Assembly: GCA_030619885.1 (NCBI GenBank)
Contig: JAUXAN010000012.1
Coordinates: 1 to 54,862, forward strand
Length of the DNA: 54,862 nt
DNA from: a bacterium
Lineage (GTDB): Bacteria; Hydrothermota; DG-26; JAUXAN01
Reading direction: 5' to 3'
Of this stretch, positions 29,113 to 47,331 are shown in pieces. Below the pieces are notes generated by a model. It saw only the letters and a program-made list of their open reading frames with translations, did no database searches and had not been told where the DNA came from. Each line of letters starts with the position of its first letter. Within the stretch, counting starts at the first letter, position 1. The position numbers and the translations under genes were made by a program.

Positions 29113-29886
29113 TCACTCACCTAAGAATGATCTCCTGACTTCATCATTCCCAAGTAGATTTTTTCCGGTATCCTCCAGGGCAATTTCACCGATTTTGAAA
29201 ACATATCCTCGATCAGCGTATTCCAATGCCATCCTTGCATTCTGTTCCACTAATAAAACAGTAGTTCCATTTTTGTTTATCTCTTTTATCTTTTCAAATA
29301 CATCCTCTACATAATTGGGAGAAAGTCCCAGAGAAGGCTCATCAAGTAACAGCAGTTTAGGTTTGAGCATAAGAGCCCTTCCAATAGCTAACATCTGCTG
29401 TTCTCCGCTTGATAGTGTTCCAGCCCTCTGTTTTCGCCTCTGCTTAAGCACAGGAAACAGGTCGAACACTTTATTTAATCTGTCTGACAATTGACTACTA
29501 TCAACTGAAAATTGTGTATAAAAGCCCATCTCCAGATTCTCCAAAACGGTCATCGTTGGAAAAACCCTTCTTCCTTCAGGGACAAGAGAAATTCCTTTTT
29601 TAACCAAATCATGGGGAGGCACATTCTTTATAGATTTTCCTCTGAAGGTCACATCCCCAGTTTTTATCTCACCCTCGGTTGCTTTGAGCAAACCACAGAT
29701 TGCTTTTAATGCTGTAGACTTTCCCGCTCCATTAGGTCCAATCAAAGCTACAATCTCTCCTTCGTTGACTACAAGAGAGATATTATTTAGAGCCTGAACC
29801 ATTCCGTAATACACCGTCAAATCCTGCACCTGTAAAAGAGTCATTGGTAATTGGTTATTAGTTATTTGTAATTGGTTATCAGTCAT
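29113..29886 (-). CDS. livF: Branched-chain amino-acid ABC transporter ATPase LivF
   Basis: 257 residues from 29886 (243 from ATG 29844). Walker [13 protein letters not shown], signature [11 protein letters not shown], Walker [14 protein letters not shown], and the LivF-typical [18 protein letters not shown]. The first 14 residues ([14 protein letters not shown]) and an internal stretch ([14 protein letters not shown], about 123-136) are encoded by the dispersed 'ttggttattagt/cagttgtcag' repeats and are not typical of LivF, whose homologues have a shorter loop there. It is the last gene of livHMGF. AGGGA before 29886 supports the repeat-encoded start; 29844 fits the family better. Confidence 0.93.
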
Positions 29887-30751
29887 TTGTGTTTTCCCTA
29901 TCGACCATTGACGATTGATTATTAACCCTTTTTCCCAGATATGCTTCGATTACCTTTTCATTTCTTACTATCTTATTAGGTGTTCCCTCGGCGATTTTCT
30001 GTCCGTAATTTAATACAATAACCTTATCTGAAATACCCATTACTACTTTCATATCGTGCTCGATAAAAAGAATAGTTTTGCCTTCATCTCTTAACTTCTG
30101 GAGTATATCAAGTATCTTCATCCTCATTTCAGGAAAGACACCAGCAGTAGGTTCATCCAGGAGTAGAAGTTCTGCTCCAGTTGCCAGTGCTCTTGCAAGT
30201 TCCAAGAGTCTTCTTTGCCCGTGAGAGAGATTCTCCGCCAAATCGTCTTTCTTGTCTTCAATACCCACCAGTCCAAGATATTCCAATGCTCTATTCCTAT
30301 TTTCTACCTCCTCATTTTTCATAGTTTTTGACTGGAGTAATGCCAAGAAAAGGCTTTCCCCTTTCTTATATTTGGTGGCAAGTAACATATTTTCCATAAC
30401 GGTAATTTGTGGAAACAGTCTGATATTTTGGAATGTCCGCGAGATGCCCATTCTTGCTATTTTGTGAGGAGACAGATAGGTAATATTAGTATCTTTGAAA
30501 TTCACTTCTCCATGCATTGGTCTTAAGAATCCAGACACTATGTTGAAAACCGTAGTCTTCCCTGCTCCATTAGGACCTACCAAAGCATTTATAGTACTTC
30601 TCTCGACAGAGAAGGATAGGTCATCAACAGCCACAAGACCGTCAAACTCCTTGGTCAGATTCTGCGTTTGCAGAATAGTGTTTAGTTGTCGGTATTCAGT
30701 GTTCAGTTCTTGTCTTCCCTGATCACTGTCTACTGATTTCTGACCACTCAT
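29879..30751 (-). CDS. livG: Branched-chain amino-acid ABC transporter ATPase LivG
   Basis: 290 residues. Walker [17 protein letters not shown], the LivG motif [20 protein letters not shown], signature [15 protein letters not shown], Walker [11 protein letters not shown]. The first 28 residues ([20 protein letters not shown] and on) and the last 13 ([12 protein letters not shown]) are encoded by the dispersed 'cagttgtcag' repeat. The ATG overlaps the livM stop (ATGA), with GGGGAGG upstream, so translation really seems to begin in the repeat-derived part. Confidence 0.94.
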
Positions 30752-31617
30752 TTAAAACGATACCTCCCCATTATACCTTGTGGTCTTTTTATCATAAGGA
30801 CTATTAATAAAAGCCCATATATCATCTGTCTTGTTTGGGCAGCAATGGAACTCGGCATCCCCAAAAACCTCAAAAGTTCGGGAAAGACTACAAGGATTGT
30901 TGCTCCAACTATTGAACCGGTAATACTTCCCATTCCTCCAAAGATGACCATCAAGAGAATTGTTATTGACTCCATTACTGTAAAACTTGAAGGGTCGATA
31001 AATGTGATGTAATGGGCATAAAGAGAGCCAGCAATGGCGGCAAAGAAAGCACCGATTATGAAGACCAGTAATTTGTGCTTTGCAGTATCCTTGCCCATTG
31101 CCTCCGATGCGATTTCATCTTCCCTTATAGACCTTAAGATTCTTCCAAACGGTGAATTTACAATCCTCCTCATAACAAATATGGTGACCCATACAAACAC
31201 TCCAACTAAAATCAGATAAAGCCATATTTCTGACAACTGGACACCAAACACTGAAAACTGTGGAATTCCCGGGAGTCCCATTGGTCCCCTTGTAACAGAA
31301 ACCCAATTTTTTGCAATAGAATAGACAATGACTCCCAGCCCAAATGTTGTTAACGCAAGATAATCCCCTTTCAACCTGAGTGATGGGTAACCTATTACCA
31401 CTCCTAAAAGTGCTCCAGCACAAGCCCCTATTATTAATCCTATCCAGGGTGAAACGCCAAAATTCAAGGCAAGCAAACTTGAGACATACGCTCCAATACA
31501 CGAAAAAGCCGCATGCCCAAGAGTAGGGAGCCCAGTATAGCCGACTATTAGATTAAGGCTCAATGTTAATATAATATAGATACCAGATATGACAAGAATA
31601 TGCAGTAAATATTCCAT
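30748..31617 (-). CDS. livM: Branched-chain amino-acid ABC transporter permease LivM
   Basis: 289 residues, about eight TM helices. The diagnostic loop [20 protein letters not shown] and the ATPase-coupling region [16 protein letters not shown] are present, as is [15 protein letters not shown] periplasmic loop, [15 protein letters not shown] (about 118-132), has nucleotides resembling the 'cagttttcag/cagttgtcag' repeats seen in livF, but this loop is naturally variable. It overlaps livG by 4 nt. Confidence 0.94.
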
Positions 31618-31621
31618 GATT

Positions 31622-31702
31622 TTAGGTAGCAGTTATCAGTAATTGGTTATTAGTCATTCATCCCCCATCTACTGGTTATTGGAAAGTAATTATTAGTCAT
31701 CC
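31622..31702 (+). repeat. Cluster of 'ttggttattagt' dispersed repeats
   Basis: The + strand reads cagttatcagtaattggtta then tattagtcattc, a gap, and ctggttattggaaag and on. The family recurs at 29838-29927 (livF start and livG end), 31997-32025, 46738-46775, 47241-47265 and 47306-47328, and inside livF, livG and livH. Confidence 0.75.
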
Positions 31703-31993
31703 GTTTACTTCAAAGTCTTCGCTATCTTCAAGTATTTCCTTAATTTTTTCCTTCAGCATCTCCGTTTCTTGCTCACTTTTTACTTCATCAATCCTTGAAT
31801 TGAGATTAAGGTCTTGAAAAGTTTTCTTGATTTTTCTTAAAAAGAAACCCGATCCGCCCTTTTGTACTTTTCCATATGCATTACCATCTTTGTATAAATG
31901 TGCATATCCTCTGTAATCTACTAAAGTAGCAACATAACGTTCTTTTGAAGGCACTTCATCTTTCAAAAGGTTTTTATATCTTACCCATTTCAT
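31697..31993 (-). CDS. Hypothetical protein inside the liv operon
   Basis: 98 residues from ATG 31993 (GGGAGG 5 nt upstream). Unrecognised: WVRYKNLLKDEVPSKERYVA, a glycine-containing turn (YAHLYKDGNAYGKVQKGGSG) and a coiled C-terminus. No TM or signal peptide. It sits between livH and livM in the same direction, bounded by dispersed repeats on both sides, and has no known Liv transporter role. It is probably a late insertion. Confidence 0.6.
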   Translation of the reverse strand: MKWVRYKNLLKDEVPSKERYVATLVDYRGYAHLYKDGNAYGKVQKGGSGFFLRKIKKTFQDLNLNSRIDEVKSEQETEMLKEKIKEILEDSEDFEVNG

Positions 31994-32027
31994 ATTACCT
32001 CCCAATTACTGACTATTGACCATTTTT

Positions 32028-32915
32028 TTACTTCGTTCCCAAAATCCCTCTTGGTCTTACTAAGAGAAAGATTATCAGTATAGCAAAGGCGATACTATCT
32101 TTCCATCCAGCCGAGATCTTCCAAATACCAAGATTTTCAGCCAATCCCAGAAAAAATCCACCGAACATTGCTCCTGGGATACTGCCAATCCCACCAATTA
32201 TGGATGCTATTATTCCTTTCAAGAGAACACTAAAGCCCATTGTTGGCTCTATATTTGTCTCTAATGAAATAAGGATGCCTGCTGCACCAGCAAGAACAGA
32301 GCCTATGACAAAAGATGCGAGTATAGTCTTTTCAGGATTTATCCCCACAACTGATGCCGCAATAGGGTCATCTGAAACTGCCCTCATCGCCTTTCCCAAT
32401 TTAGTCCTCTGAATAAAGAGCCATAGTATAACTAATAACAAACCGCTAACAACTAATATTAGAATTTGAATATCAGTAATTACCGCTCCAAGGAAGTGAT
32501 GCCCTTCTTTAATTGGGCCGGTTCTTAAGGTAAGAATCTGATTTCCATAGATGAGAGCGATAAGGTTCTGGATAAAGATAAAAACCCCAAAAGAGGCTAA
32601 TAAAAATATCAGATTCGATGCTTTCCTTTGTCTCAAAGGATAATAGACCAACTTATTGATCACTACTCCCAATGCTCCAGCCCCAACTACTCCTACAAAA
32701 ACTGCAAAAATCCATACGAATATTGACACCTGACCACTGACATCTGACAATTGTTCTCTGGCAACTGTATACGCCAGATACGCCCCTGCCGTATAGACAA
32801 CCCCATGGGCAAAATGGAAGAACTTGACGGTCCGATAGATAACCGTAAAGCCTAAAGCAACAAGGGCATAAATGCTTCCTGCGATAATACCATTAACAAT
32901 TAGTTGTGGAATCAT
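32028..32915 (-). CDS. livH: Branched-chain amino-acid ABC transporter permease LivH
   Basis: 295 residues from ATG 32915 (GAGAGG upstream), the usual start at MIPQLIVNGIIAGSIYALVA. About eight TM helices; the motif RAVSDDPIAASVVGINPEKT contacts the ATPases, and GGIGSIPGAMFGG is conserved. A loop, AREQLSDVSGQVSIFVW (about 61-77), corresponds to 'tgaccactgacatctgacaa' on the plus strand, a dispersed-repeat phrase, and is longer than usual for LivH. The livK gene is 12.7 kb upstream. Confidence 0.94.
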   Translation of the reverse strand: MIPQLIVNGIIAGSIYALVALGFTVIYRTVKFFHFAHGVVYTAGAYLAYTVAREQLSDVSGQVSIFVWIFAVFVGVVGAGALGVVINKLVYYPLRQRKASNLIFLLASFGVFIFIQNLIALIYGNQILTLRTGPIKEGHHFLGAVITDIQILILVVSGLLLVILWLFIQRTKLGKAMRAVSDDPIAASVVGINPEKTILASFVIGSVLAGAAGILISLETNIEPTMGFSVLLKGIIASIIGGIGSIPGAMFGGFFLGLAENLGIWKISAGWKDSIAFAILIIFLLVRPRGILGTK

Positions 32916-33040
32916 CCTCTCACCTCTGACAACCAAAAACTAACAGATAACATCCCTACTTTGATTATTTTAGAAAAAGGCTTTGATGATTTAGGCAAAT
33001 AGTTGAGCCTTGCCATACATTCTATCTAACTATGCAATAT

Positions 33041-33874
33041 TTATGTCACGGATATTCCAAGCTTTAGTTCAATTTTTCCCTTCAAAACATCAATAAAATC
33101 GTTGATATCAGGCATTGGTTGTTTTGTAAAGGCAGTTAGCAAATTCTTAATTGTTGATGACCTCTTGTAAACTCTCTTCAACTTATAAATACTCCCTTCC
33201 TTGAACAAATTGTAAACAAAAAATATAGTTGCATTATTTTGGGAGTAACCAAGGTTAGATAAATTAAATCTGTTTACCATATTTTCAAAAACATACCTTT
33301 GAGATATCCAAAATATCTTTTTATTCCACTTTTGTATAACCTGTCCTTTATATAACATTTGGATATATGCTAATTTGATAGTGTTATATGTGTTCATTCC
33401 ATAGTTATATCTATTCTTTGAGACATCAGCTCCATTTAAAAAATCTTTTAGAGCTTCAACCAATTTTCCCGTCTGGGTGGTTGAATCGGTTTGAAACTCA
33501 ACGACACAGAAATCTTCTATTTCACTGCTAATAGGCTTGTGTTTTACCAGAACAAAATCAAAATTTCCAACCTTGAATAATCCAACTTCCTTAAATAATA
33601 GAACATTGTCAGTAGAGCCAAAATATTCATTACATACATCTGTAAAGACTTTGTTACCCTGTAAGAATCTATTTGGGCAGATTGCGATTTTACTTCCTTT
33701 GTGTAAAACCGAGCATACTCCCATTGGAAAAGAAATGGTTCGACTTTGTTTATCACATTTTTTATTCATAAATGGACACCAGAATTTAGTTCTATTTCGC
33801 AGTACCTTTCTGTTTTTGTTTTCAATAGGATATCCAAATATTTCAATCGGATAATGAGAATTATTGCTTGTCAT
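33041..33874 (-). CDS. NotI-like type II restriction endonuclease
   Basis: 277 residues. The N-terminus has a four-cysteine site, C33, C40, C54 and C66 (WCPFMNKKC...GVCSV...CPNRF), and the opening PIEIFGYPI typical of the NotI family, whose cysteines hold an iron atom. The probable catalytic core is D106 (NFDFVLV) and E126-x-Q128 (VVEFQTD), an E-x-Q variant of PD-(D/E)xK. Paired 4 nt downstream of a SAM DNA methyltransferase, as in type II restriction-modification systems. Its target site cannot be inferred reliably; NotI itself cuts an eight-base GC site. Confidence 0.82.
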   Translation of the reverse strand: MTSNNSHYPIEIFGYPIENKNRKVLRNRTKFWCPFMNKKCDKQSRTISFPMGVCSVLHKGSKIAICPNRFLQGNKVFTDVCNEYFGSTDNVLLFKEVGLFKVGNFDFVLVKHKPISSEIEDFCVVEFQTDSTTQTGKLVEALKDFLNGADVSKNRYNYGMNTYNTIKLAYIQMLYKGQVIQKWNKKIFWISQRYVFENMVNRFNLSNLGYSQNNATIFFVYNLFKEGSIYKLKRVYKRSSTIKNLLTAFTKQPMPDINDFIDVLKGKIELKLGISVT

Positions 33875-33878
33875 AATT

Positions 33879-35453
33879 CTATATCTTTCCTTTCTCTAAA
33901 ATTACAATTTCTTCAGGTAAGGGAATATTGTGACCGGTGCTTCTCCGCATCCTGAATAATTCCTTTCTGCAGTTATTATAGCCTATACTCTTAGCCATGT
34001 TTATGAGAATGTCTCCAACAGGAATCAGAACTCCCTTAACAGTTTGGTCACCGACTACAAGTAAGAAATGAGAACCATCTCTTAAAAGCGGATATATTTC
34101 TTTCAAGCATAAATACATATCACCAAAGTATTCTCTAACCATTCGTGGATAATCAAAGCCCCACTTTTTATCTTTAGTTTGTTGGTAAATCTTATTTGAT
34201 ATTTCAATGACATATTGAAAATTATGTATATATTGCTCTGAATTACTTTCTTTGAATATAAGTTTGGTGCTTCCTTTAGCCATCGTTCTTTTTATCTGTT
34301 GAATATCCTCCATGCTTCTCACAAAATCTAACAAGTACAATTCTAATCTTGTCTGCCTTGTATATTCCAGATCATTTGGATAGGGAGGAGAAGTAATAAT
34401 AAAATCTATAGAATCTTTATCAACATATTTCTGTGCGTTTAAGCAGGTATCGTTAATGATTTTTGATTTCCCAAAGTTATTATGTTCCTGTGAGAGTTTT
34501 AAATCATTATACATTTGAACAGTTTTTTTAGAAAATAAATCCCAAAATTCTTCTTTATCACGGAAGGGGTAGAAGGTAGTTCCAGGACATAATGAAACAT
34601 AAGAGGCATCAAAACAGGATTTTGACATAGCCACTAAAAGTAAATTTTTAATTTCTTCATTTTTAACTTGATTTATAATGTCTTTCAATAAGGAAACTTC
34701 TTTTTGTAGAACAGGGCTTAACCATTGGTTGATTTCTTTCTTGGGCATTACTGACATAAAATCGTTTTTGAATTTTATCTTATCTATATCTTTGACACGA
34801 TTCAAAAAAGTCTCGGCTACATTTATGATTGTTTTTTTTAATTTAAGCAAGTCTATATCCCAGGTTGTCTTTACTCTTGAAATAAACGCCATAAGAGGAT
34901 TGGTATCAAAACCAATCGCATCAAGATTAAACAGATTAGCCGAAACCAAGGTGGTTCCACTTCCACAAAAAGGGTCAACGACTAAAGCGTCTGAATTCAA
35001 TCTGTATTCGTTTATTTTTTTTTCAATTAAAGAATACGGGAATTCTTCAAGATAATTATACCACTTGTGTATTATCCCATATTGGTTCAGTTCACTAACA
35101 GTTTGTTTCTTAAAGAATAATGTTAACTGAGCCTTATTATTGTTAAAACTATCGAGAATCCATCTTGAGTAATGTTTATGTTTATAATCGTTTCTTTTTA
35201 TAACTTCCTTGAAAAACTCAATTCTTTCTTCTGGGACAGAGAAAATAAAAGAACCACCCGAAGAATTTGTAATGAATCCCTTTTTTAACAATGAATTTAT
35301 AGCATCTGATAATATTTTGCTCTGCACAGGATAATCGGTGAGCAAAGATAACTCTTCTAAAGTTGTCTGTTTTGCTCTGGCTATGTTTATATAAATCCTT
35401 TCCAGTATTTGAGCCTGTAAGAATGGCAGGTTATTAGGTTTATAAGTTTTCAC
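33879..35453 (-). CDS. DNA methyltransferase (N4-cytosine/N6-adenine) of a type II R-M system
   Basis: 524 residues. An N-terminal winged-helix-like segment (about 30-60, TTLEELSLLTDYPVQSKILS), SAM motif I DPFCGSGTT (160-168), and catalytic motif TSPPYPN (354-360), so motif I precedes IV with a long intervening region that may include target recognition. SPPY suggests N4-cytosine, but N6-adenine cannot be excluded. It lies immediately upstream of the NotI-like nuclease, which it should protect against. Confidence 0.88.
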   Translation of the reverse strand: MKTYKPNNLPFLQAQILERIYINIARAKQTTLEELSLLTDYPVQSKILSDAINSLLKKGFITNSSGGSFIFSVPEERIEFFKEVIKRNDYKHKHYSRWILDSFNNNKAQLTLFFKKQTVSELNQYGIIHKWYNYLEEFPYSLIEKKINEYRLNSDALVVDPFCGSGTTLVSANLFNLDAIGFDTNPLMAFISRVKTTWDIDLLKLKKTIINVAETFLNRVKDIDKIKFKNDFMSVMPKKEINQWLSPVLQKEVSLLKDIINQVKNEEIKNLLLVAMSKSCFDASYVSLCPGTTFYPFRDKEEFWDLFSKKTVQMYNDLKLSQEHNNFGKSKIINDTCLNAQKYVDKDSIDFIITSPPYPNDLEYTRQTRLELYLLDFVRSMEDIQQIKRTMAKGSTKLIFKESNSEQYIHNFQYVIEISNKIYQQTKDKKWGFDYPRMVREYFGDMYLCLKEIYPLLRDGSHFLLVVGDQTVKGVLIPVGDILINMAKSIGYNNCRKELFRMRRSTGHNIPLPEEIVILEKGKI

Positions 35454-35484
35454 GATTTCTTTCGTCCTCTGTTTGCTTTAAATT

Positions 35485-36015
35485 TCAAATTCTATCCCGC
35501 AGATAAGATTCTTCTTGATGTTTTCTAATATATTCTTTAATTTCTTTTGTTGAAAGCTCTCTGGTTACCTTCTGATTGCCAAAAGTTATTGTTGCCTTTA
35601 CTGGAGGTGCTTTTTCAATAAATTCACCAACGGAAAGCGATTGTGTGCCGATAGCATTTCCTGAATATGAAAATGCTGCCACCAAATGTATCTTATCTGT
35701 GGGAAGAATATCGAAAGTATCATTAAATACCATTTCGCCACCTTTTGTAGGATAGAGTGGTAAAGCATCCAGTTTTGAAAAACTAACGACACCTGCACAT
35801 CGCAGTGCTGGTCTCCTTCCTGTATTAACAACATCAACACTTATTGAAGAGACTTTGTGTTCCCACCGTTTAGGATCCCGAGTGTGACCTGTACCTGATA
35901 ATCCGACATGAATAGAAACAATTCGAATTCTTGGAACATCTCGCAATTGCAGATATAAAGCAAAGCTTCCTGCAACAAGTGCTATAAAGCTTACTATAAG
36001 CGAAATTATTAACAC
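35485..36015 (-). CDS. Membrane-anchored hypothetical protein
   Basis: 176 residues from GTG 36015. One N-terminal TM (about 3-23), then an extramembrane beta-sandwich-like domain: IRIVSIHVGLSG, ISVDVVNTGRRPALRCAGVV and LVAAFSYSGNAIG. Unrecognised. A TTGACT-16-CATAAT promoter (36070-36043) within the 150-bp repeat drives it and probably the R-M pair behind it. It may be an accessory membrane component of this defence cassette, but nothing in its sequence shows that. Confidence 0.55.
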   Translation of the reverse strand: MLIISLIVSFIALVAGSFALYLQLRDVPRIRIVSIHVGLSGTGHTRDPKRWEHKVSSISVDVVNTGRRPALRCAGVVSFSKLDALPLYPTKGGEMVFNDTFDILPTDKIHLVAAFSYSGNAIGTQSLSVGEFIEKAPPVKATITFGNQKVTRELSTKEIKEYIRKHQEESYLRDRI

Positions 36016-36040
36016 TTTTTAACTTCCACAATTATAGTTG

Positions 36041-36190
36041 AAATTATGTATACAATGAAACAAAAGTCAATAAAAAAAGCAAAAAAGCTTTCTTTCTCGC
36101 TTTCGCATGAAAGCGAGAAAATTATATTTCTGCTAATGTGGATTTGTGCTCTTTTGTAGTGCTCGATGGGACCTACATACTAAATTCCAG
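36041..36190 (-). repeat. 150-bp hairpin-terminator/promoter repeat, copy A
   Basis: Nearly the same 150 bp as 39198-39347. In the minus-strand (gene) direction: ctggaatttagtatgtaggt, a 12-bp perfect stem with a 4-nt loop (36093-36120, arm tttctcgctttc), a T-rich tract and the promoter TTGACT-16-CATAAT. It lies just downstream of the Pycsar pair and just upstream of the next cassette, so it can end one unit and start another. Confidence 0.8.
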
Positions 36191-36220
36191 CCCCACTCCT
36201 ATCTTGACGATTCAAAAATG

Positions 36221-36952
36221 TCAATCTACCTCCACATACCAATCTGTAGAATAAATAGTATAATAACTACCTGCAAATTTAAAATTATTTTCCTTCTCCC
36301 ACATGTCAACTTGTTCATTCTGCCCCCAAAGGTTCTGTTTGTTTCCATATTTAGCAAATTCTTCGAGATTATCATATACATCCTCCGATATCTTAATATG
36401 ATTTGGAGAAGAAGCAGAATCTCCTAATTTAACTGCAAAATTCACTGGCGTGCCAATCCATAGTAAATCATTATTATTAGGATCTCTTTTCAATCCACTC
36501 TTGACAACCAGAATTTCTCCCCAATCAATACCAATTCCAAAATCTATTTTGTCATATTTACGGAATCTTCCACCTAAGACGTTTGAGAGCATGTATTCCA
36601 TCTGCATAGCAGATATAACTGCCTGACTAACCTCGTTCTTATAATTTCCACCCCAGAAGGCCAATATACTGTCTCCACCAAAACTCCTTATATAACCGTC
36701 ATTTGTTACAGCTATTTTTGAAGCTGTATATAGAAATGACTTGTGGATTTTTGCAACTGTCTGTCTTCTATGAACGTCTAAAATTTCCGTTGACCTCCGA
36801 ATATCAATATACAAAACTGTAGCTTCAATCTTTAACCCTGTATTACCAAAAGTAACGTCCACAACTTCAGGGATATAATCTACCTCGTCAATATCATAAT
36901 CTCCCAATAAATATTCGTCGACCTGCTGTGTTATATCATCTTTTAATCCCAT
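36221..36952 (-). CDS. pycC: Pycsar-type class III nucleotidyl cyclase
   Basis: 243 residues. Class III cyclase core: metal-binding D50 in VLYIDIRRSTE and D94 in SFGGDSILAFW, then DFGIGIDWGEILV and IGTPVNFAVKLGDSA. No membrane, PAS or HAMP part. A cyclase of this type adjacent to the DUF5706-like TM protein is the layout of Pycsar, where PycC makes cCMP or cUMP on phage infection to trigger the effector. Whether this one makes a cyclic pyrimidine needs measurement. It begins 4 nt after the effector stop. Confidence 0.85.
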   Translation of the reverse strand: MGLKDDITQQVDEYLLGDYDIDEVDYIPEVVDVTFGNTGLKIEATVLYIDIRRSTEILDVHRRQTVAKIHKSFLYTASKIAVTNDGYIRSFGGDSILAFWGGNYKNEVSQAVISAMQMEYMLSNVLGGRFRKYDKIDFGIGIDWGEILVVKSGLKRDPNNNDLLWIGTPVNFAVKLGDSASSPNHIKISEDVYDNLEEFAKYGNKQNLWGQNEQVDMWEKENNFKFAGSYYTIYSTDWYVEVD

Positions 36953-36956
36953 AGAA

Positions 36957-37532: not shown

Positions 37533-37611
37533 TTTACACTCATTCTTTCATCTTAATTTCATATAATGCTGCAGAAAAGAGAACCGTCCCCTTTTTACCT
37601 TGTTATGCTGG

Positions 37612-37640: not shown

Positions 37641-37730
37641 TAAAAAAACGCTTCTCGCTTTCGTGCGAAAGAAGATTATATTTCTTCCAATACGGATTTG
37701 GGCTCTTTTTGTAGTAGTCGATGGTAGAAA
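37631..37730 (-). repeat. Hairpin/promoter repeat, diverged copy B
   Basis: Shares tgtcaataaaaaa, ttctcgctttcgtgcgaaag (shorter stem), atatttctt and ggctctttttgtagt with copies A and C but lacks the 3' tail ctacatactaaattccag. The rest of the 37533-37849 gap holds the Pycsar leader and no ORF of note. Confidence 0.65.
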
Positions 37731-38809: not shown

Positions 38810-38815
38810 AGATAA

Positions 38816-39106
38816 CTACAAAGATATGATTAAGCTTGCGTTCACACAATCAGATTTTGAACAGATGAAGATGGTTTCTGATGGGGTACTTCTTACTGCA
38901 CCTAAATTCTCAAGGGTAACTGTTTCACCACAGACCGAGCACTTTGTGTTTTCATCTAATTTCAAACCGTTGGCCTCTAAAATCTTCTTTTTATCCTCTT
39001 CATCTACAAATCGTATAGGGAGAACTACTTTCTTCCTGCTTAGCTTATATCCGGCAGTAATTCCCGCTATCGCTACCAATGGAAAGATTGCAAATAAAAT
39101 CCACAT
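38816..39106 (-). CDS. Membrane-anchored zinc-ribbon protein
   Basis: 96 residues. An N-terminal TM (about 2-19), then basic residues and a small domain with CSVC (56-59) and a distal pair in FICSKSDC, a likely four-cysteine zinc site. AGGAGGT upstream of the ATG. First gene of a two-gene unit with the 319-residue protein; both put a domain on the cytoplasmic face of the membrane if the N-terminal helix is a simple anchor. Promoter TTGACT-16-CATAAT at 39227-39200 within repeat copy C. Confidence 0.55.
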   Translation of the reverse strand: MWILFAIFPLVAIAGITAGYKLSRKKVVLPIRFVDEEDKKKILEANGLKLDENTKCSVCGETVTLENLGAVRSTPSETIFICSKSDCVNASLIISL

Positions 39107-39197
39107 TTATAACCTCCTTTCTCTTTTAAAATAGCTAATTTATACGAAAAGTCAAGGACTTTGTTTACCTTTAAATCTTGTTTTCACCATTACACTA

Positions 39198-39347
39198 AAA
39201 TTATGTATAGAACGAAACAAAAGTCAATAAAAAAAGCGACAAACCCTCTTTCTCGCTTTCCTGCGAAAGCGAGAAATCCACATTTCTTCTGATGTGGACT
39301 TGGGCTATTTTTGTAGTGCTCAATGGGACCTACATACTAAATTCCAG
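39198..39347 (-). repeat. 150-bp hairpin-terminator/promoter repeat, copy C
   Basis: Closely matches 36041-36190 over its full length. The 12-bp stem (39249-39276) has the same arms and a different loop (ctgc versus gcat). A second small stem, tccacat...atgtgga (39277-39298), is better formed here. The promoter hexamers are identical to copy A. The remainder of the 39107-39425 gap carries 'gaaccgtccccattttact' but no gene. Confidence 0.8.
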
Positions 39348-39425
39348 ATTCCCCTACGGGTCTGCGATCAGTTCAATCCCATCTTAACCATGAGAAAGAG
39401 AACCGTCCCCATTTTACTTTCTATT

Positions 39426-40643
39426 CTATGAAATTTTCTTTCGCTTCCAAGTACCAAATTCTATATAATACCCATCATATCTTAGTATCTTCATGAAAGT
39501 CTCATCCGCTAACCTAATTAACTTTTGATACTCCTCCCAGAAATCTTTCAGCGATATATTCAGCAATCCTTCATGCACAACTACATTTCTGAGGTCAATA
39601 AAGTCAAGGTTATAATCCACGATGCCATATTCGTTAAACAATTTTTCTAACACGTGCCGGAAATCCATTCGTTTTGCAAGTCTTCGTATGTTCTTATAAT
39701 TGCTCTTTAGAGTCTCCATCATTATGGAGGCTAGAAGAAATTTGATTTCCTTGGCAGGATGCCTCTTTGACTCCAAGTAATAACTAATTGCAGTATCGAG
39801 TCCCATCCGCCTTTTCTCCACTTTAAGTTGATCATAACATTTCTCAACGAAATACTTCAAATCTTCTTTATAGCGTGCTCTTGTATCGATCATGCCGAAT
39901 CCCGATTGAAATTCCGTTGTGTAAGCTCTACGAGCGAAGATTTCTAAGAAATTGTTGTTAGAATCATAGGATGTACAATAAACCCAATTTATAATAGTTC
40001 CCTTTGCTAAAGATAACAGCAGACATAGATTCTCTAATATTGATTCTTGCACATTATAATCTATGTCAGTCCTTTCCTCAAATATCACTTCTGCAGTTAC
40101 ATCTACCCCTCCTCTATCTCTGAGGCGCTTCATCACTTCCTTATAGTTCTGAACTTGTGTAATCATAAGACCCCCATCACTCAACTTTGTAGGTATGTCG
40201 CTAAGGCGATACTCTTTCCCACGATATTCTCTAACTTGATAACCATTGTATTCTAGATTTACCAAAGAATAAACTACTTTTGATGTTTTAGATTTATCTT
40301 TTGAGGCAACACTAATCCTAAAGTTCTCAGGATAAATTTTGACTTCAGCTGGACCATCAAAATTTGCTTTTAATCCACCGCATGTGGCGTCATCGATTTC
40401 GAATAAATAACCTTCATCGGTATAACCCTTAACAGTACAGGAAAGTAATGTGGGACTCCCAAAAGAGTTCATAACTTTCTTAAAGATTTCACCAGTTTTT
40501 TGAATCCAACATGAGGCTTCGATGTCTCCTGTGCTATATTGGGTACACTGAAATGTACAATCCTCTTCAATACCTTCTGAGTTAATTTTTCCGCTTCCTC
40601 TGTAAGTATGTAAAATCAAGACAGATTCCGATAGATTTCCCAT
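39426..40643 (-). CDS. HEPN-motif protein, ApeA-like architecture
   Basis: 405 residues from ATG 40643, with GAGGAGG upstream; 40682 is an unsupported longer start. A beta-rich N-terminal half (about 1-195), then a helical C-terminal domain with LRNVVVHEGLL (R352-x4-H357), the HEPN RNase motif. A large N-terminal sensor domain with a C-terminal HEPN domain is the layout of ApeA-type single-gene abortive-infection proteins. The family match is by architecture and motif only. It is a stand-alone gene between copies of the cassette repeat. Confidence 0.65.
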   Translation of the reverse strand: MGNLSESVLILHTYRGSGKINSEGIEEDCTFQCTQYSTGDIEASCWIQKTGEIFKKVMNSFGSPTLLSCTVKGYTDEGYLFEIDDATCGGLKANFDGPAEVKIYPENFRISVASKDKSKTSKVVYSLVNLEYNGYQVREYRGKEYRLSDIPTKLSDGGLMITQVQNYKEVMKRLRDRGGVDVTAEVIFEERTDIDYNVQESILENLCLLLSLAKGTIINWVYCTSYDSNNNFLEIFARRAYTTEFQSGFGMIDTRARYKEDLKYFVEKCYDQLKVEKRRMGLDTAISYYLESKRHPAKEIKFLLASIMMETLKSNYKNIRRLAKRMDFRHVLEKLFNEYGIVDYNLDFIDLRNVVVHEGLLNISLKDFWEEYQKLIRLADETFMKILRYDGYYIEFGTWKRKKIS

Positions 40644-40810
40644 GTTTTCCTCCTCTTTCTTAAAGCAAGTTGCTCGAGTCAATATTTCTCAGCAATGAAG
40701 ATTATTGTTCTACCTTCTGTAATATTATTATCAAATATAGCCAATTGCCCACACTTATTACTTTTGGCTTGTTTTAAATTTCTCGTAATTTCTATTATAA
40801 CTCTTTTTGC

Positions 40811-40860
40811 TTAAATTCCAGATTCCCATACGAGTCGTATGACCAACACGACCCCAAAAT
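40811..40860 (-). repeat. Cassette-repeat tail ('taaattccagattcc')
   Basis: taaattccagattcc followed by a small palindrome, catacgagtcgtatg, and cacgacccc. The same tail is at 36182, 39338 and 41591, giving four copies at cassette boundaries. Confidence 0.6.
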
Positions 40861-40889
40861 CACCTATAATATTGACGATCTTATCTAAA

Positions 40890-41153
40890 TTATTCTAATG
40901 CTTGTATTTCTACAAGTGAAACATTCTTTATCGCATCGTGTGTAATTTTGGTAGCATATCCGTCTGTTAACCTTTTAATTTCCTTATCTTCCTCATCGTA
41001 GACTTCTACAATAACATTTGAAAGTTGTTCTATAGTAATAATCCCTGCATAGAAGCCTGTAACACGATAAGCATTGCTTTCTATATGGCTAATACTTGCA
41101 TTCTCAAGGATACATATTATCTTCTCATTTGCACCATATACTTTTGCCTTCAT
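40890..41153 (-). CDS. Small hypothetical protein
   Basis: 87 residues, unrecognised and strand-rich: MKAKVYGANEKIICIL, YRVTGFYAGIITIEQL, VIVEVYDEEDKEIK. No TM, signal peptide or cysteine motif. A weak Shine-Dalgarno (agggaga) lies upstream. It lies 43 nt downstream of the 125-residue gene in the same direction and probably forms a two-gene cassette with it. Confidence 0.5.
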   Translation of the reverse strand: MKAKVYGANEKIICILENASISHIESNAYRVTGFYAGIITIEQLSNVIVEVYDEEDKEIKRLTDGYATKITHDAIKNVSLVEIQALE

Positions 41154-41196
41154 AAAAATCTCCCTATAAAGATTTTTAAAGACTCATCTGCAAGGA

Positions 41197-41574
41197 TTAC
41201 AAGTTTTCTAACTTTCGTTTTGCCTCTTCTACAATCCTTTTTTCTTCTTCCATCTGTCTGGATTCTTCTGCTTTGGTTTTTGAAATGATTTTCTCATACA
41301 TCTGGTTAGTTTCTGTGACCGCTTTCTCCAATTCTTCTTTATGCTGACGCATATTATCTGAACTTGCAACAACCATCCGAATGTATTTTCCCTCACAGAA
41401 CGCTTTTCTTTTCATTGAATACAGGTGCTCCTTCCAGAATTGCTCAAAGCATTGAATCCATTGAGAATCAGGCTCTTCAGAAAGATCAAAGTAAATTGAA
41501 ACCGCCGATGGAAATGAATCATCCCTTTCTGTTTTTTCCTTATTTACTCCTACAATTTTTATTTCTTTAGCCAT
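41197..41574 (-). CDS. Small hypothetical protein with C-terminal coiled coil
   Basis: 125 residues, unrecognised. A beta-rich first half (VSIYFDLSEEPDSQWIQCFE) and a charged coiled-coil second half ending EKRIVEEAKRKLENL. GGAGGTCC precedes the ATG. Bounded upstream by the 'taaattccagattcc' repeat tail, so it opens a cassette with 40890-41153. Confidence 0.5.
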   Translation of the reverse strand: MAKEIKIVGVNKEKTERDDSFPSAVSIYFDLSEEPDSQWIQCFEQFWKEHLYSMKRKAFCEGKYIRMVVASSDNMRQHKEELEKAVTETNQMYEKIISKTKAEESRQMEEEKRIVEEAKRKLENL

Positions 41575-41590
41575 TTGGACCTCCTTCGCT

Positions 41591-41645
41591 TAAATTCCAG
41601 ATTCCAGCACGACCCCATCTTGACGACCCCATCTTGAGACCCCAG
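41591..41645 (-). repeat. Cassette-repeat tail with tandem 'gaccccatcttga'
   Basis: taaattccagattccagcac followed by two copies of gaccccatcttga. Related to the tails at 36182 (tcctatcttgacga), 39338 and 40811. Confidence 0.6.
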
Positions 41646-41669
41646 GATTTTCTGCCTACGATAACTTTA

Positions 41670-42830
41670 TTAGTAACGAATCGTAGGAATATGATTTTTT
41701 TCAAAATTCCAGTTAAATATTGGTGTCAGACCTTTCGACTGCAATTTGGGCAAATATTCATTAACATCGAAATCATAAGTAGGAAACTGATATCCATCTT
41801 CTCCGAGGACATAGCCGCCAGGGATCGTGCTACAATTAAAAGTGAATAAAGCGCCACCTCCTTTTGCAAGATGGATGCATAAATCAAATTTTTCTCTTGT
41901 ATTAATGAATGGTAAAGTTCTGGGCGAGAAAATGTTATGCACTGCAACTGCGAGTAGAAATTCTTTATCTGACGGAACGAAAGGTGTAGATTGGATTAAG
42001 GCTCCTGCAGCAGGTTTCAGTCGAAGTATACCGACTATAGAAGTTCGAATCTCATAATTATCAAATAAATATCTTTCGTGTTCCATAAGAGATAACCAAT
42101 CTTTCCTCCAAGGTGCTAATCCTGAAAGTACTCCTAAACCAAGATTTTTTATTCCTGCTTCTATCATTCTTTCGAAATCGTCAACACGATAGTTAAAGTT
42201 TGCTTTTGGGGTTTCATCTGGATGCAATTGCTTGTAATATTCTTGTTGATATGTCTCTTGCCATAAAACTACAAAATCTAAGCCAGTTGCTTTTAAAATG
42301 CGGTATTCTTCTACTGTAAAAGGTTCTACATTTATTGCAACCATTCCACCGCCTACTTTATCTAAAATTTTATGAGCAAGTCTGATATGATCGGGTATTT
42401 CAGGAATTATCTTGGGATCACTTCCATACACAAGTTCAACTACTTTTAATCCTTTCTTCATAACCAAATATTCTATTTCTTTTTGAAGTTGATCAAAGGT
42501 TAAACGTATTCTTTTTATCATTTTGTCTTTGTTTTCGATTCTATAGTTACAGTACTTACAATGCTCCCTACAAAAACTTGAGACATAAACAGGAACAATA
42601 GGAAAAACTTTATCCTTGAAAATCTTTTCCTTCATTTGTCTGCTTGTATTTAAAATCTCAGTAAAAAGGTCAACTTCTTTCTCAGGGTCAACGCTGAGCA
42701 AGTTTCCTAATTCCTCAAAGGATAATTTTTCTCCAAACTTGGCCTTTTCAAGAATTTTCTCGACACTCGCTGTATTAAAATTAAGAGACGAAATTCTTTC
42801 TTCCATTTTTCTGACATATTCACTGAACAT
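41670..42830 (-). CDS. Radical-SAM protein of the ThiH/HydG family
   Basis: 386 residues. The radical-SAM cluster motif CREHCKYCNY is near residue 86, followed by the ThiH/HydG-like segments GLKVVELVYGSDPK, INVEPFTVEEY and VVLWQETYQQEYY, and the C-terminal BATS-like region. The second Fe-S motif of HydG is absent, so it resembles ThiH-type tyrosine lyases or tryptophan-lyase-like relatives. No thiamine or hydrogenase-maturation gene is nearby. It is the last gene of a four-gene run behind livK that includes two methyltransferases, suggesting modification of a small molecule. Confidence 0.82.
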   Translation of the reverse strand: MFSEYVRKMEERISSLNFNTASVEKILEKAKFGEKLSFEELGNLLSVDPEKEVDLFTEILNTSRQMKEKIFKDKVFPIVPVYVSSFCREHCKYCNYRIENKDKMIKRIRLTFDQLQKEIEYLVMKKGLKVVELVYGSDPKIIPEIPDHIRLAHKILDKVGGGMVAINVEPFTVEEYRILKATGLDFVVLWQETYQQEYYKQLHPDETPKANFNYRVDDFERMIEAGIKNLGLGVLSGLAPWRKDWLSLMEHERYLFDNYEIRTSIVGILRLKPAAGALIQSTPFVPSDKEFLLAVAVHNIFSPRTLPFINTREKFDLCIHLAKGGGALFTFNCSTIPGGYVLGEDGYQFPTYDFDVNEYLPKLQSKGLTPIFNWNFEKNHIPTIRY

Positions 42831-42869
42831 TCTAACCCTTTAAATTTTGCACGATAAAATTATCTAAAA

Positions 42870-43823
42870 CTATACTGTACATAGACAACCACAGCATTGT
42901 TCTTTTTCAAAAAAGTGAAAATTTGTAATTCTAAATCCATTATTAATTAAAAACTTTCTCAATTTAGACGGAGTAGGTCTAAAGGAAGAAAAAACCTTAA
43001 TTCTTTCTGGAAGCTGTATTTCCAAATTAAGATCTGCATTGGGATGTAATTTAAGCCATTTCTTTACAAGAAAATATACTTCTATCATTGAATGTTTTTT
43101 ATTGTATAAAAATTCAAATTGTTCAGGTCTGGGGTCATAAATCCCGATTAAAGCAAGGCTTTTGGCAAAAAGTTCTAAGATGCAAGGTAATTTATATTGT
43201 TCAATAATCTGCTTTTCTCGGTTTGTTGAATAGACTTCAAGAGTTATAAAAAGTCTATCCTCTGATATCATCGATTTCCTGATATAAGTTAAGACAGAAG
43301 AATTAGAAAGAATTGCTCCATTTGCTATTAATAGAATTATGTTTCTACTTGCACCATTTCGACGAAGATTTTCAATGATCTTAGAAATGTCCGGTTTAGT
43401 TACATCACACACAAAAGACAAAAATTCTAAATTTCTGAAGCATTTTTCCCCATAAGACCTTGTTGTTTTTAACAGTCCCCGACTTATATCTATGAGTGCA
43501 TAATGTGCAATTCGCTGAATACCTAATGTATTTATGATTATTGGAACCTCTATTCCATTACCCGGACCTACGTGTAAAATATTGAAAGGTTTTTTCTCCA
43601 AATTAGCGGATGCAAGGTCCAAAAACCGCTTAAGAGTGGATAATTCTCGTTTTCCCAAGTCATAGTGACCATCTTTAGATATTGCATCCCATGCATTAGC
43701 TCCAGTATCGAGATAAGCAAACTTATGCGGAATTTCGTGCTTTCGTTCAATAGCTTCAATTAACTCGTGCCGCTGAGAAAAAACACCCCGCTCACGCTGT
43801 TTTTCGATCTTGTTATTTTTCAT
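42870..43823 (-). CDS. EgtD-like SAM methyltransferase with cysteine-rich tail
   Basis: 317 residues. A SAM motif I, ILHVGPGNGIEVPIII (near 86), a motif around ALIDISRGLL, and a C-terminal region (IEVYFLVKKWLK, then KVFSSFRPTPSKLRKFLINN) resembling histidine-specific methyltransferase EgtD (Methyltransf_33). EgtD makes hercynine in ergothioneine synthesis; no EgtB is seen. The protein ends EKEQCCGCLCTV, four cysteines in its last eight residues, which could bind metal and is not an EgtD feature. It lies 39 nt upstream of the radical-SAM gene. Confidence 0.6.
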   Translation of the reverse strand: MKNNKIEKQRERGVFSQRHELIEAIERKHEIPHKFAYLDTGANAWDAISKDGHYDLGKRELSTLKRFLDLASANLEKKPFNILHVGPGNGIEVPIIINTLGIQRIAHYALIDISRGLLKTTRSYGEKCFRNLEFLSFVCDVTKPDISKIIENLRRNGASRNIILLIANGAILSNSSVLTYIRKSMISEDRLFITLEVYSTNREKQIIEQYKLPCILELFAKSLALIGIYDPRPEQFEFLYNKKHSMIEVYFLVKKWLKLHPNADLNLEIQLPERIKVFSSFRPTPSKLRKFLINNGFRITNFHFFEKEQCCGCLCTV

Positions 43824-43868
43824 GACAGGACGAAATTTGTAAAATGCAAATTCCTATCTTCTTTATGT

Positions 43869-44864
43869 CTATGCTCTGGATTCGTTCATCTCAGCAATAA
43901 CAGTTTCATGCGTCTCATAGAAAGTAATGTCTTTAAAATTAAACAAGTTAAGCAAACGTTCAGTAGGTGGAAATTTTAAATGTAAATCTCCAATTTTCGC
44001 TGTTTTCTTCTTCCATTCAAGAAGTACCTTTCTATCATATATTGCAATATCAGTTGTATTGAACTGGTAGTCATTTAATTGAGGAATTTCTTTTTTAAGT
44101 TTACTCTGCTTTACGAAACGCAGTTCTATTTTCTTCCCATTTATGCGACAAAACTCATCTAAAAAACGTCTGTTTTCAGGCGTATTTTTGAAACTGATCT
44201 TCCACTGACGATCTTTTAGTATTACAAGTCTTTTTCTTTCAGCAGAACTTTGTAACAGTGATTTTATATGCGGAGGAAATTTTTCGTATGGCAATTGTTT
44301 CCCATTTTTAACCTGATTAAAATCAACCTTGTTCAACAATATTTTGAACCACTCTTCAGGAGTAAATGGCGAAGTTAAAAAAATACAATTCTCACTTTCA
44401 GGATAGAGACCCATCGTAAATTCAGAATATTCTTGACTATTGAAGTCTTTCAACACTATTTCGTTGATACATTCTGGATAGCCAAATTCCGCACCTATCT
44501 TTTTTGAAATAAATTTCGAAATTACCCATTTAACTTTTCCAAAATGCTCATTGCTAAGCGGTTCGATTATTCCCTCAAATGAGCCATTTTTCGTATATAA
44601 AGCCGTATATTGACATATATTCTCCATCCGTTTATCAATATTTTCGTCGACTCTTTTAAGAAATTCTGTTCTTTCTTTTTTTCGTTTCCTTATATCTTTG
44701 TAATACTCAACAGCGATAAAACCAAAAAATCCCCATAATATCGCCGAAGATATAGCTACCTTTAGACTTATCTCAGATACGAGCCAACCGCCTACCCCAG
44801 CTGCAATAAACCCTACAATAATACTCACTGCCAATTCTTTTATATCAAATTTCTCATCAGCCAT
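43869..44864 (-). CDS. Two-TM membrane protein, function unknown
   Basis: 331 residues from ATG 44864 (GGAGG 5 nt upstream). Two TM helices (about 10-30 and 36-53), then a cytoplasmic domain of about 275 residues with a coiled start (RKRKKERTEFLKRVDENIDK) and mixed strands (CIFLTSPFTPEEWFKILL, KRLVILKDRQWKISFK). Unrecognised; a distant phospholipase-D-like fold cannot be excluded but no HKD motif is present. It starts 2 nt after the methyltransferase stop, so the two are coupled. Confidence 0.6.
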   Translation of the reverse strand: MADEKFDIKELAVSIIVGFIAAGVGGWLVSEISLKVAISSAILWGFFGFIAVEYYKDIRKRKKERTEFLKRVDENIDKRMENICQYTALYTKNGSFEGIIEPLSNEHFGKVKWVISKFISKKIGAEFGYPECINEIVLKDFNSQEYSEFTMGLYPESENCIFLTSPFTPEEWFKILLNKVDFNQVKNGKQLPYEKFPPHIKSLLQSSAERKRLVILKDRQWKISFKNTPENRRFLDEFCRINGKKIELRFVKQSKLKKEIPQLNDYQFNTTDIAIYDRKVLLEWKKKTAKIGDLHLKFPPTERLLNLFNFKDITFYETHETVIAEMNESRA

Positions 44865-44866
44865 TT

Positions 44867-45622
44867 TTACCTCCATTTCTTTGAAATTATTTCCACAATT
44901 CGGTACAACATGATATATCGATCTCCCTCTTTGTAGAGCCGTAATTCTTTATGAACTTTTTCACTCAAATTAAGAAAAGCGTTAATAATCCGTTCTTGGA
45001 TATTTTCAGGTGCAATAGCAGCCCATTCCTGAATGACACGAGGCAGTGTGTATGTGTAAATAACTTCCATTAAAAAACTGTTACTTTCTAAAAGGTCACA
45101 ATAATCATGAAAAGTGTAATAACCTCTAAAGTCGCTCTCTCTTATCCTACTTAGGGGAGCTAACTCGCGTATTGCTGTTTCAGAAAAACAAAAATCCATA
45201 AGAACAAAGAATCCTTCCTTTTTAAGCACACGATGAACTTCACCTAAAACCTTGATAGGGTCATCAAAATGGTGAATTGCTGCTCGGCAAGTTACAACAT
45301 CGAATGATTCGTCAGGAAATTTGAGTTTATGGGCGTCCATTTGGAAAAACTGAATATTTTTTATGTTTTCTCTTGCTGCTTTAATTTCCGCAGTCTTCAA
45401 GCATTTTGGCTCACTGTCAATTGAGACAACCTTTTTAAAATGTTTGGCGAGTGTAAAAGCAGTGTATCCACTACCCGTCCCAATATCTAATGATTCATTT
45501 AAATTATTGAAATATGGAATCACCTTTTGTTCAAAAATCTCAGATGCCTTCCGAAGCGATTTTTCTCTTTCTCGGAACATCTTTTCTATATGTTTCTGCC
45601 TCTTTGATTCTTTTTGGCACAT
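44867..45622 (-). CDS. Class I SAM-dependent methyltransferase
   Basis: 251 residues. Motif I LDIGTGSGYTAFTLA (about 45-59), the acidic-loop motif VVSIDSEPKCL, motif II FDVVTCRAAIHHFDD and post-II VLKKEGFFVLMDF make a Methyltransf_11/UbiE-like enzyme. The C-terminal third is variable and probably sets substrate. It begins 3 nt after the livK stop, so it is tightly linked to the binding-protein gene rather than to a separate promoter. Substrate unknown. Confidence 0.85.
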   Translation of the reverse strand: MCQKESKRQKHIEKMFREREKSLRKASEIFEQKVIPYFNNLNESLDIGTGSGYTAFTLAKHFKKVVSIDSEPKCLKTAEIKAARENIKNIQFFQMDAHKLKFPDESFDVVTCRAAIHHFDDPIKVLGEVHRVLKKEGFFVLMDFCFSETAIRELAPLSRIRESDFRGYYTFHDYCDLLESNSFLMEVIYTYTLPRVIQEWAAIAPENIQERIINAFLNLSEKVHKELRLYKEGDRYIMLYRIVEIISKKWR

Positions 45623-45625
45623 TAT

Positions 45626-46777
45626 CTACTTACCTGAACTATAATCTACAAATACACCATTCCTAACTGTCATAAACCTCAAGGGTTTTACTACATCGCC
45701 TTTTTCATCGAATGAGGTTAGCCCGGACACACCTTCAAAATTTTTCACTTTAGCTATCTCAGCTTGTATCTCAGAACCAGTTTTTGCACCTTTCTTAAGG
45801 GCCAGAGCAACAACATTCATAACATCATACGCTTGAGCTGACCAAATATCCGGTTTCACTCCATATTTGGCTTCGTATTCCTTAACATATGTTTCTACGA
45901 TCTTGGTTGGACTTCCAGGATCAAAAATTGGTGCAGTAAAGATTGCATCCTCAGCTGCTTTCCCAATCTCTTGAAGTATCTGAGGGTCATAAAAACCGTA
46001 AGTGCTTAGAAGTTGTATTTTTATTCCCATTTCCTCTTTTTGCCTTAGTAAAATTAATAGTTCTTTAAGATACCCAATTATGTATATTGCTTGAGGTTTG
46101 GCTTTTAAGATTTTGGTTAATTGCGTTCGGAAGTCAGATGCGCCTTGGTCAAAACTTTCTTTTACAACTATAGAACCGCCTCCTCTTGTAAACGACTTCT
46201 CGAACTCTTTTGAAAGTCCTACTCCCCAATCATTGTTCACATAGAGAATAGCTACCTTACTTAGTTCTAAAGTGTCCGCAGCGAATCTCCCCATTACTAA
46301 ACCCTCATAAACATCAGAAGGCCAATTTCTAAAGAAGTATTCACTGATACCGGTAAGTTTTGGAGAGGTGGCAGCCGGTGAAAATAGTACTACTTTTTCT
46401 TTGTCAGCGATGGGAGCTACTGATAAAGCACATGCACTGATAGCACCTCCAATAATAGCAGGGACTTTTTCTGTAGTTATTAGTTTTCTGAAAGCCGCTA
46501 CAGAACTTTTGGGGTCTCCCTGATCATCTTCGTAAAGCACGACTAATTTCTTGGTTTTGATACCTCCGCTTTTATTTATTTCTTCTACTGCGAGGTCAAT
46601 GCCGTTTTTCATTTTTTGTCCATATACGGCAATGTCCCCCGTCAATGGCAATATTACTCCAATCTTTATCTCCTCTGACTGTTTTTTGCAGCCGATAAGG
46701 GTTGCTCCTGTGACAAAAAACACTGCAATAAGCAGTGCAGTTGTCAGTTGTTTGATATTAGTTGTTAGATGCTTCAT
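45626..46777 (-). CDS. livK: Branched-chain amino-acid ABC transporter binding lipoprotein LivK
   Basis: 383 residues. A hydrophobic segment and lipobox LIGC (cysteine near residue 30) precede a Peripla_BP_6-type domain: IKIGVILPLTGDIAVYGQKM, IIGGAISACALSVAPIADKE and SPAATSPKLTG. The first residues, HLTTNIKQLTTA, come from a 'gttgtcagttgtttgatatt' stretch belonging to the dispersed-repeat family. Other Liv genes are 12.7 kb downstream. A hairpin followed by AAGGAGG lies right before the ATG. The ligand may be a branched-chain amino acid or another amino-acid-like compound. Confidence 0.92.
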   Translation of the reverse strand: MKHLTTNIKQLTTALLIAVFFVTGATLIGCKKQSEEIKIGVILPLTGDIAVYGQKMKNGIDLAVEEINKSGGIKTKKLVVLYEDDQGDPKSSVAAFRKLITTEKVPAIIGGAISACALSVAPIADKEKVVLFSPAATSPKLTGISEYFFRNWPSDVYEGLVMGRFAADTLELSKVAILYVNNDWGVGLSKEFEKSFTRGGGSIVVKESFDQGASDFRTQLTKILKAKPQAIYIIGYLKELLILLRQKEEMGIKIQLLSTYGFYDPQILQEIGKAAEDAIFTAPIFDPGSPTKIVETYVKEYEAKYGVKPDIWSAQAYDVMNVVALALKKGAKTGSEIQAEIAKVKNFEGVSGLTSFDEKGDVVKPLRFMTVRNGVFVDYSSGK

Positions 46778-47310: not shown

Positions 47311-47331
47311 TGTGATTGGTAATTGGATACT

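Follow-up and report, generated by a model that had tools for sequence, protein, structure and literature searches.

Degenerate seven-base arrays in and around a bacterial liv operon: dispersal, tolerated protein sites and probable origin

The 54,862-nt stretch of bacterial DNA studied here (contig JAUXAN010000012.1; hereafter the window) contains the genes livF, livG, livM, livH and livK, and an original prediction, made from its letters alone, described DNA in and between these genes as invaded by two dispersed repeat phrases. We find that these phrases are degenerate arrays of a 7-nt unit, TNACNRA (GTNATYN in reverse), and that such arrays are dispersed in the host draft genome (G000; 2.46 Mb, examined through fetched stretches and pattern searches) and in 38 relatives, with controls mostly at 0. 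The arrays are of the TAACTGA/STRR heptamer kind, which is already known. Their distribution is best explained by seeding that is specific to each genome, turnover in place and retention where extra sequence is tolerated, an account we consider probable. Newly found is that one loop in the helical subdomain of LivF is a recurrent target of heptads in unrelated phyla.

Seven-base arrays in the window and the genome

Every stretch named in the original prediction is present and has a period of exactly 7, with a self-identity at lag 7 of 0.47–0.59 in each compared with 0.00–0.36 at lags 5, 6, 8 and 9. The two phrases are really one heptad family seen in two registers and orientations, and the copies are seven-periodic, degenerate arrays rather than reproductions of a fixed phrase. 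The repeat proposed at 31997–32025 is present by its periodicity but weak (Table 1). No fixed element, length or shared border was found among the arrays of the window and of genus g69, which span about 20–160 nt, and no exact TAACTGA doublet occurs among the window arrays detected with a cyclic heptad profile. With this profile, trained on arrays of G000, 9 segments in the window score 20 bits or more, compared with a mean of 0.2 in 20 dinucleotide shuffles and 1 in the reversed window, so the nucleotide likeness is above that expected from composition; all of these segments fall within 29484–33123 and 46738–47326. The period also emerges when no sequence is assumed, with 5, 27, 15 and 18 tandem sites at lag 7 in four locus sets and 0–4 at other lags.

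Concentration around one operon, as originally described, holds within the window only, since the arrays are dispersed genome-wide and are not peculiar to the liv genes. The genome-wide count of the repeat that had been proposed as a check, using a strict 25-base pattern (TNACNRA × 3.5), gives 14 matches at about 10 sites in G000, two of them in the window, with 0 in the reversed control; a looser pattern gives 41 matches with 15 in the control. The accompanying check of orientation relative to neighboring genes, based on simple gene calls from open reading frames (ORFs) in G000 and G036, shows a mixture, with many arrays inside genes. Within the window, the intergenic arrays of at least 18 bits all lie in the operon sense.

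Protein sites and the LivF loop

The peptides translated from the liv stretches agree with those originally reported: heptads encode the N-terminus of LivF, both ends of LivG, a loop each in LivF and LivH and the start of the LivK signal peptide. Comparison with homologues, using alignments and curated models, shows these parts to be lineage-specific, as are most, though not all, coding copies. The LivF family model begins at residue 16 and the match to the solved LivF-like ATPase 1JI0 at residue 17, while the LivG model matches residues 24–274 of 290. Since the curated models leave out exactly the repeat-encoded ends, those ends are extra. The view of the repeats as insertions that extend proteins stands for the ends of LivF and LivG; it does not describe the LivF loop, located by the 1JI0 match, which is largely replaced with a net gain of 2 amino acids (aa) relative to 1JI0. 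The region 29838–29927, originally called intergenic, is coding, with 29838–29894 encoding the LivF N-terminus and 29879–29927 the LivG C-terminus. There are two in-frame ATGs in livF, and Met15 coincides with the starts of homologues; the N-terminal extension may not be translated if Met15 is the true start.

Other liv sites are also struck in relatives. At locus L053 a LivH loop of equal length contains a 29-bit array of differently worded heptads, which makes this loop a recurrent site as well, and L052 and L053 each have their own heptads at the N-terminal end of livG. Both loops of the T9SS/FlgD-Ig C-terminal domains are further tolerant sites in G000 and G036. Heptads were seen in the two loops of such domains at L038, L041, L043, L189, L200 and L207. 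Two strong profile hits absent from the original list, in livM and in a transmembrane helix of livH (31230–31260 and 32428–32458), were considered as insertions and ruled out by alignment. They lie in conserved peptides, which shows that a coding stretch can resemble heptads without being an insertion.

The coding copies remain in frame and free of stops, as originally stated. At the TNA codon of coding arrays the second base is T or C in 29/29 cases; the corresponding counts are 27/57 for the remaining two phases and 78/239 for non-coding arrays. Stops are thus avoided more in the reading frame than in the other phases. Because an open frame was required for an array to be called coding, the 29/29 shows that it is at the free positions that stops are avoided and is no independent proof of translation.

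The comparison of LivF loops covered the window, relatives and a further 30 loci of the G147 class; the query for the latter carried a heptad loop and may favor similar relatives among the returns. A loop was called seven-periodic if at least 14 of 21 positions agreed at lag 7, a threshold set after the first set had been seen, the second set being new. Among loops of at least 20 aa, 23 of 27 are seven-periodic, compared with 0 of 50 canonical loops (Fisher p = 7e-16, which overstates independence as the LivF sequences are related). None of these 27 long loops scores 14 at any other lag. The window's own LivF loop scores 12, one of four below the threshold, and its assignment rests on its profile score and lag-7 identity (Table 1). 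The units are diverse (GGCAAAG, GTCAGCG, GTCAGTT, AAAGTTC, AAATTTC, AGAAGTC and others), with unrelated heptamers in the LivF loops of Nitrospirota, of the WOR-3 phylum to which our host probably belongs and of a deltaproteobacterium. In two Nitrospirota loci (L056 and L057) a REP-like palindrome (GTAGGGGCGAGGC...GCCTCGCCC) was observed in frame beside the LivF-loop heptads.

For the two heptamer types tested, the unit in the LivF loop is the type dispersed in the host genome. GTCAGCG has 33 and 41 matches in G147 and G148, whose LivF loops contain it, and GGCAAAG has 17, 28 and 13 matches in G149, G150 and G153, whose loops contain that unit, compared with 0–1 matches of either in genomes with canonical loops and 0–1 in controls; G149 and G150 also contain some GTCAGCG (10 and 4). 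The genomes tested thus have their own heptamer wording at many sites. Among the matches listed, the viral contigs L260, L288, L306, L316 and L318 show several four-heptad matches within a few kilobases.

The dispersal and the LivF loops bear on an alternative in which the heptads arise by chance or codon bias and are mimicked by AT-rich coding DNA. The livM and livH hits in conserved peptides without insertion would fit this, and the T9SS motif VIRYSL can itself be read as GTTATTC repeats. On the other side stand the excess of window segments over shuffles, the empty reversed control across G000 and the confinement of the lag-7 excess to long LivF loops; for part of the arrays, codon bias is ruled out because they are intergenic. 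As an account of the whole set this alternative is already refuted, and we give it next to no credence.

Proposed origin and turnover of the arrays

Arrays occupy intergenic gaps, gene ends and protein loops that tolerate extra residues, and the array at one site varies in length and composition between sister species. The latter is best seen in g69, where one convergent intergenic site has heptads in all six species in which both flanks were found, with intervals of 24, 70, 97, 100, 101 and 161 nt and a unit order that differs among species. The flanking genes read as oxidoreductase-like and HU-like, and the stop codon of each lies at or close to the start of its own arm. Xanthomonas heptamers have been described as varying in a comparable way from one related species to another (PMC4692102).

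We therefore favor, as the probable account, genome-specific seeding followed by turnover in place and selection by tolerance, and we commit to these three elements without naming a copying agent. New arrays would be seeded from the genome's own heptamer pool by a copying process and would then expand, contract and mutate in place, with selection removing those that break a frame or a fold. Inside genes, the arrays left would be reverse-sense or stop-free, and stop-rich forward ones would remain between genes and at gene ends. The liv genes would owe their arrays to the tolerance of the LivF helical-subdomain loop, the termini of LivG and LivF and one LivH loop; relatives have heptads at the same liv places. 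The added peptides would have no dedicated function.

The arrays share much with repeats already described. MacGregor (2015; PMC4679880) reported TAACTGA direct repeats in Beggiatoaceae, Cyanobacteria and Bacteroidetes, some of them reversed within ORFs close to protein ends, and did not arrive at a mechanism. Like those, the arrays here are tandem repeats with an exact period of 7 nt, share the wording class, are dispersed over many sites of G000 and are mostly intergenic; in both cases forward copies end ORFs and reverse copies lie at protein ends. Unlike those, the unit here is not a TAACTGA with little variation but TNACNRA with two near-free positions, whereas direct repeats of TAACTGA variants are rare in BOGUAY; the host is probably of the WOR-3 phylum, and several phyla show the same protein loop hit repeatedly by unrelated heptamers. 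STRR are heptanucleotide repeats of heterocystous cyanobacteria, and heptamer simple sequence repeats are over-represented in Xanthomonas and Nostoc (PMC4692102 and references there); these repeats resemble ours in period 7, dispersal, lineage-specific wording and occupation of the same sites in related species, where length and sequence vary strongly. The Xanthomonas and Nostoc heptamers are, however, G-rich, quadruplex-forming and studied as intergenic repeats (PMC4692102), whereas ours are AT-rich and often encode loops. Rickettsia palindromic elements (PMC2229807) are likewise repeat DNA tolerated in frame within genes for conserved proteins, but they are conserved stem-loop elements of 105–146 nt, and the heptad arrays have no fixed element, length or border.

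Several observations weigh against the account we favor. In interior heptads of several genomes, positions 2 and 5 carry 0.07–0.63 bits and positions 1, 3, 4, 6 and 7 more, a contrast inflated by the fact that most of these loci were fetched with a pattern fixing the same positions; two long liv arrays of G053 found by protein homology also show free positions 2 and 5, and in the G053 set overall the five kept positions stand at 95–98%. Neutral repeat decay does not predict two nearly free and five kept positions. Identical adjacent heptads number 19/311, compared with 23.2 ± 4.0 in shuffles, and in long arrays the likeness of heptads shows no decay with distance. Where arrays of opposite sense are neighbors, the reverse one precedes the forward one 28 times and follows it 3 times; the 28 include 16 from a single paralogous family, the T9SS/FlgD-Ig C-terminal domains, and are therefore not independent. 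Finally, GTCAGTT is nearly absent everywhere, including G151, whose LivF loop contains it, and is either too rare for the rule that each loop carries its genome's own type to be judged or an exception to it at this stringency. The anatomy and the 28:3 order suggest a constraint or a templated process beyond what we propose. In the few reverse-forward pairs inspected by eye, the arms differ at the variable positions. Simple recent slippage was rejected, as identical neighbors were expected and no excess was found; in short arrays, units are somewhat more alike within than between arrays, and some local copying is possible.

One constraint of this type would be regulation: a protein that binds RNA or DNA would recognize the heptads (to control translation, as has been suggested for Beggiatoaceae), with five positions held by selection and the coding copies as by-products. 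The five positions conserved in the homology-found arrays are what such a protein would require, the intergenic arrays of the window share the operon sense, and most TAACTGA repeats lie just upstream of start codons (PMC4679880). We regard this as possible but unlikely given the mixed orientation and the many arrays within genes of G000 and G036, and the g69 arrays follow stop codons rather than start codons. A single binding code also cannot account for the LivF loop, which unrelated heptamers share.

Mobilization offers a second route, in which the arrays, and above all the palindromic pairs of reverse and forward sense, are copied by a RAYT-type Y1/HUH transposase, as proposed for REP/REPIN (PMC3116915, PMC3733652). 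Both systems involve short dispersed repeats, palindromic in REP/REPIN, and the 28:3 order and the palindrome adjoining heptads in the two Nitrospirota LivF loops would fit. At the genome level, Y1_Tnp occurs in 37/39 heptad-bearing genomes of the phylum compared with 50/108 others (p = 3e-8), in 13/13 compared with 12/24 at the family level (p = 0.002) and in 22/22 of the size-matched set, and the rve integrase has no association with heptads. The association was found in trying three families, with ancestry controlled only by collapsing to genus and family, and its cause may be ancestry or the load of mobile elements. The number of Y1 copies also rises with genome size (rho 0.54), and many Y1-positive genomes are without heptads. 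RAYTs are usually located among their REPs. Here, 18 of 20 Y1_Tnp neighborhoods (up to about 1.5 kb on each side) have no heptad array of 18 bits; the other two are G000:C67, at about 200 nt from a T9SS-domain array, and one neighborhood whose single weak hit, some 1.5 kb off, is at background level. The units are also 7-base tandems and not a tagged palindrome, although no systematic scan for a palindrome tag was made. With a genome-level association but no physical linkage, this route was rejected as the leading account and kept as a rival that we hold to be doubtful.

A further possibility is that a bacterial process writes 7-nt repeats, a genome-specific template or mobilizing enzyme adding units with two loose positions at many sites. 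Arrays would then not be copies of their neighbors, and each genome would place heptamers of its own in the same tolerant sites; we rate such a process as rather improbable. Templating by a reverse transcriptase or a telomerase-like enzyme was rejected: RVT_1 is found in only 12/147 genomes, shows no association with heptads (3/39 compared with 9/108 genomes) and was found neither in the genomes richest in heptads nor in G000, G002, G007, G036, G046 or G053, though a highly divergent enzyme is possible.

Descent or transfer of the repeats together with the liv operon from an ancestor would account for heptads at some of the same positions in G036, G053 and L053. The operon is indeed 70–90% identical across families and even phyla (proteins of 29113–32936; LivM is 90% identical to that of G036), which suggests horizontal operon transfer. 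The heptads at shared positions differ, however, in sequence, length and unit. A LivF 78% identical to ours (L055) has a canonical loop, the liv contig of G007 is free of arrays, and L051 has a single one. Since both testable heptamer types in the loop match the pool of their host genome, this explanation was set aside as quite improbable, and genome-specific seeding with turnover in place is retained.

Features of the window and implications

The arrays and liv genes of the window are listed in Table 1.

Table 1. Heptad arrays, heptad-like stretches and liv genes of the window.
Feature	Coordinates	Strand	Details
livF-loop array	29484..29520	+ (reverse sense to gene)	Encodes LivF helical-subdomain loop; 14.4 bits; lag-7 identity 0.47 vs 0.19–0.25
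Longest array	29839..29894	-	TGACTGA TAACCAA TTACAAA TAACTAA TAACCAA TTACCAA; 55.4 bits; livF N-terminal extension (residues 1–14) and livG stop overlap
Degenerate heptads	29895..29930	-	livG C-terminal tail; lag-7 identity of 29830–29930, 0.59
livG N-terminal extension heptads (residues 1–23)	30672..30751	-	30676–30712 in gene sense, then 30719–30748 opposite; 27.9 and 15.6 bits
Intergenic arrays, livM to 102-aa ORF	31622..31705	-	34.3, 14.4 and 18.9 bits; last overlaps end of 102-aa ORF
Weak heptad stretch upstream of 102-aa ORF	31997..32025	+	12.7 bits; lag-7 identity 0.59
Seven-periodic stretch, LivH loop EQLSDVSGQVS	32718..32758	+	lag-7 identity 0.56 vs 0.17–0.24
Short heptad stretch, livH start region	32926..32945	+	20.1 bits
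Heptads of LivK signal-peptide n-region HLTTNIKQLTT	46738..46768	-	24.1 bits
Intergenic heptads upstream of 131-aa ORF	47252..47269	-	22.5 bits
Intergenic heptads downstream of MazF-like gene	47303..47326	-	25.7 bits
Heptad-like coding stretch in livM, not an insertion	31230..31260	+	21.5 bits; peptide and length same in G036 and other homologues
Heptad-like coding stretch, livH transmembrane helix (ILVVSGLLLVI)	32428..32458	+	26.0 bits; alignment without length change
livF	29113..29886	-	PRK11614 LivF, 272 bits, under curated cut-off of 441
livG	29879..30751	-	PRK11300 LivG, 264 bits, under curated cut-off of 362; BCA_ABC_TP_C
livM	30748..31617	-	PF02653
livH	32028..32936	-	PF02653
livK	45626..46777	-	PF13458

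Other features lie nearby. A MazF/ChpB-like toxin gene, scoring under curated cut-offs, is located at 47332–47688 with heptads directly downstream. A small hairpin followed by AGGAGG occurs in three minus-strand copies (46782–46800, 47219–47237 and 47284–47302; e.g., GCCCATATGGGCAGAGGAGG), two of them immediately upstream of start codons as a hairpin and ribosome-site cassette. Between livH and livK, at 33041–35453, are two genes that appear from their sequence to encode a restriction endonuclease and a DNA methyltransferase (TSPPY motif). A separate repeat family at 36041–36193, 37652–37724 and 39198–39347 has a palindrome like TTTCTCGCTTTCNNNNGAAAGCGAGAAA and common flanks, its copies being up to 97% alike.

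Heptamer repeats, known since STRR were described in cyanobacteria, are over-represented in bacteria, and the LivF loop makes the question of how they spread directly testable, since a site repeatedly struck by differing heptamers lends itself to the counting of insertions. The two near-free positions, together with the lack of neighbor duplication, argue against recent slippage alone. Gene starts beside heptad arrays may be miscalled. The arrays also show how variable loops and ends can arise in conserved enzymes.

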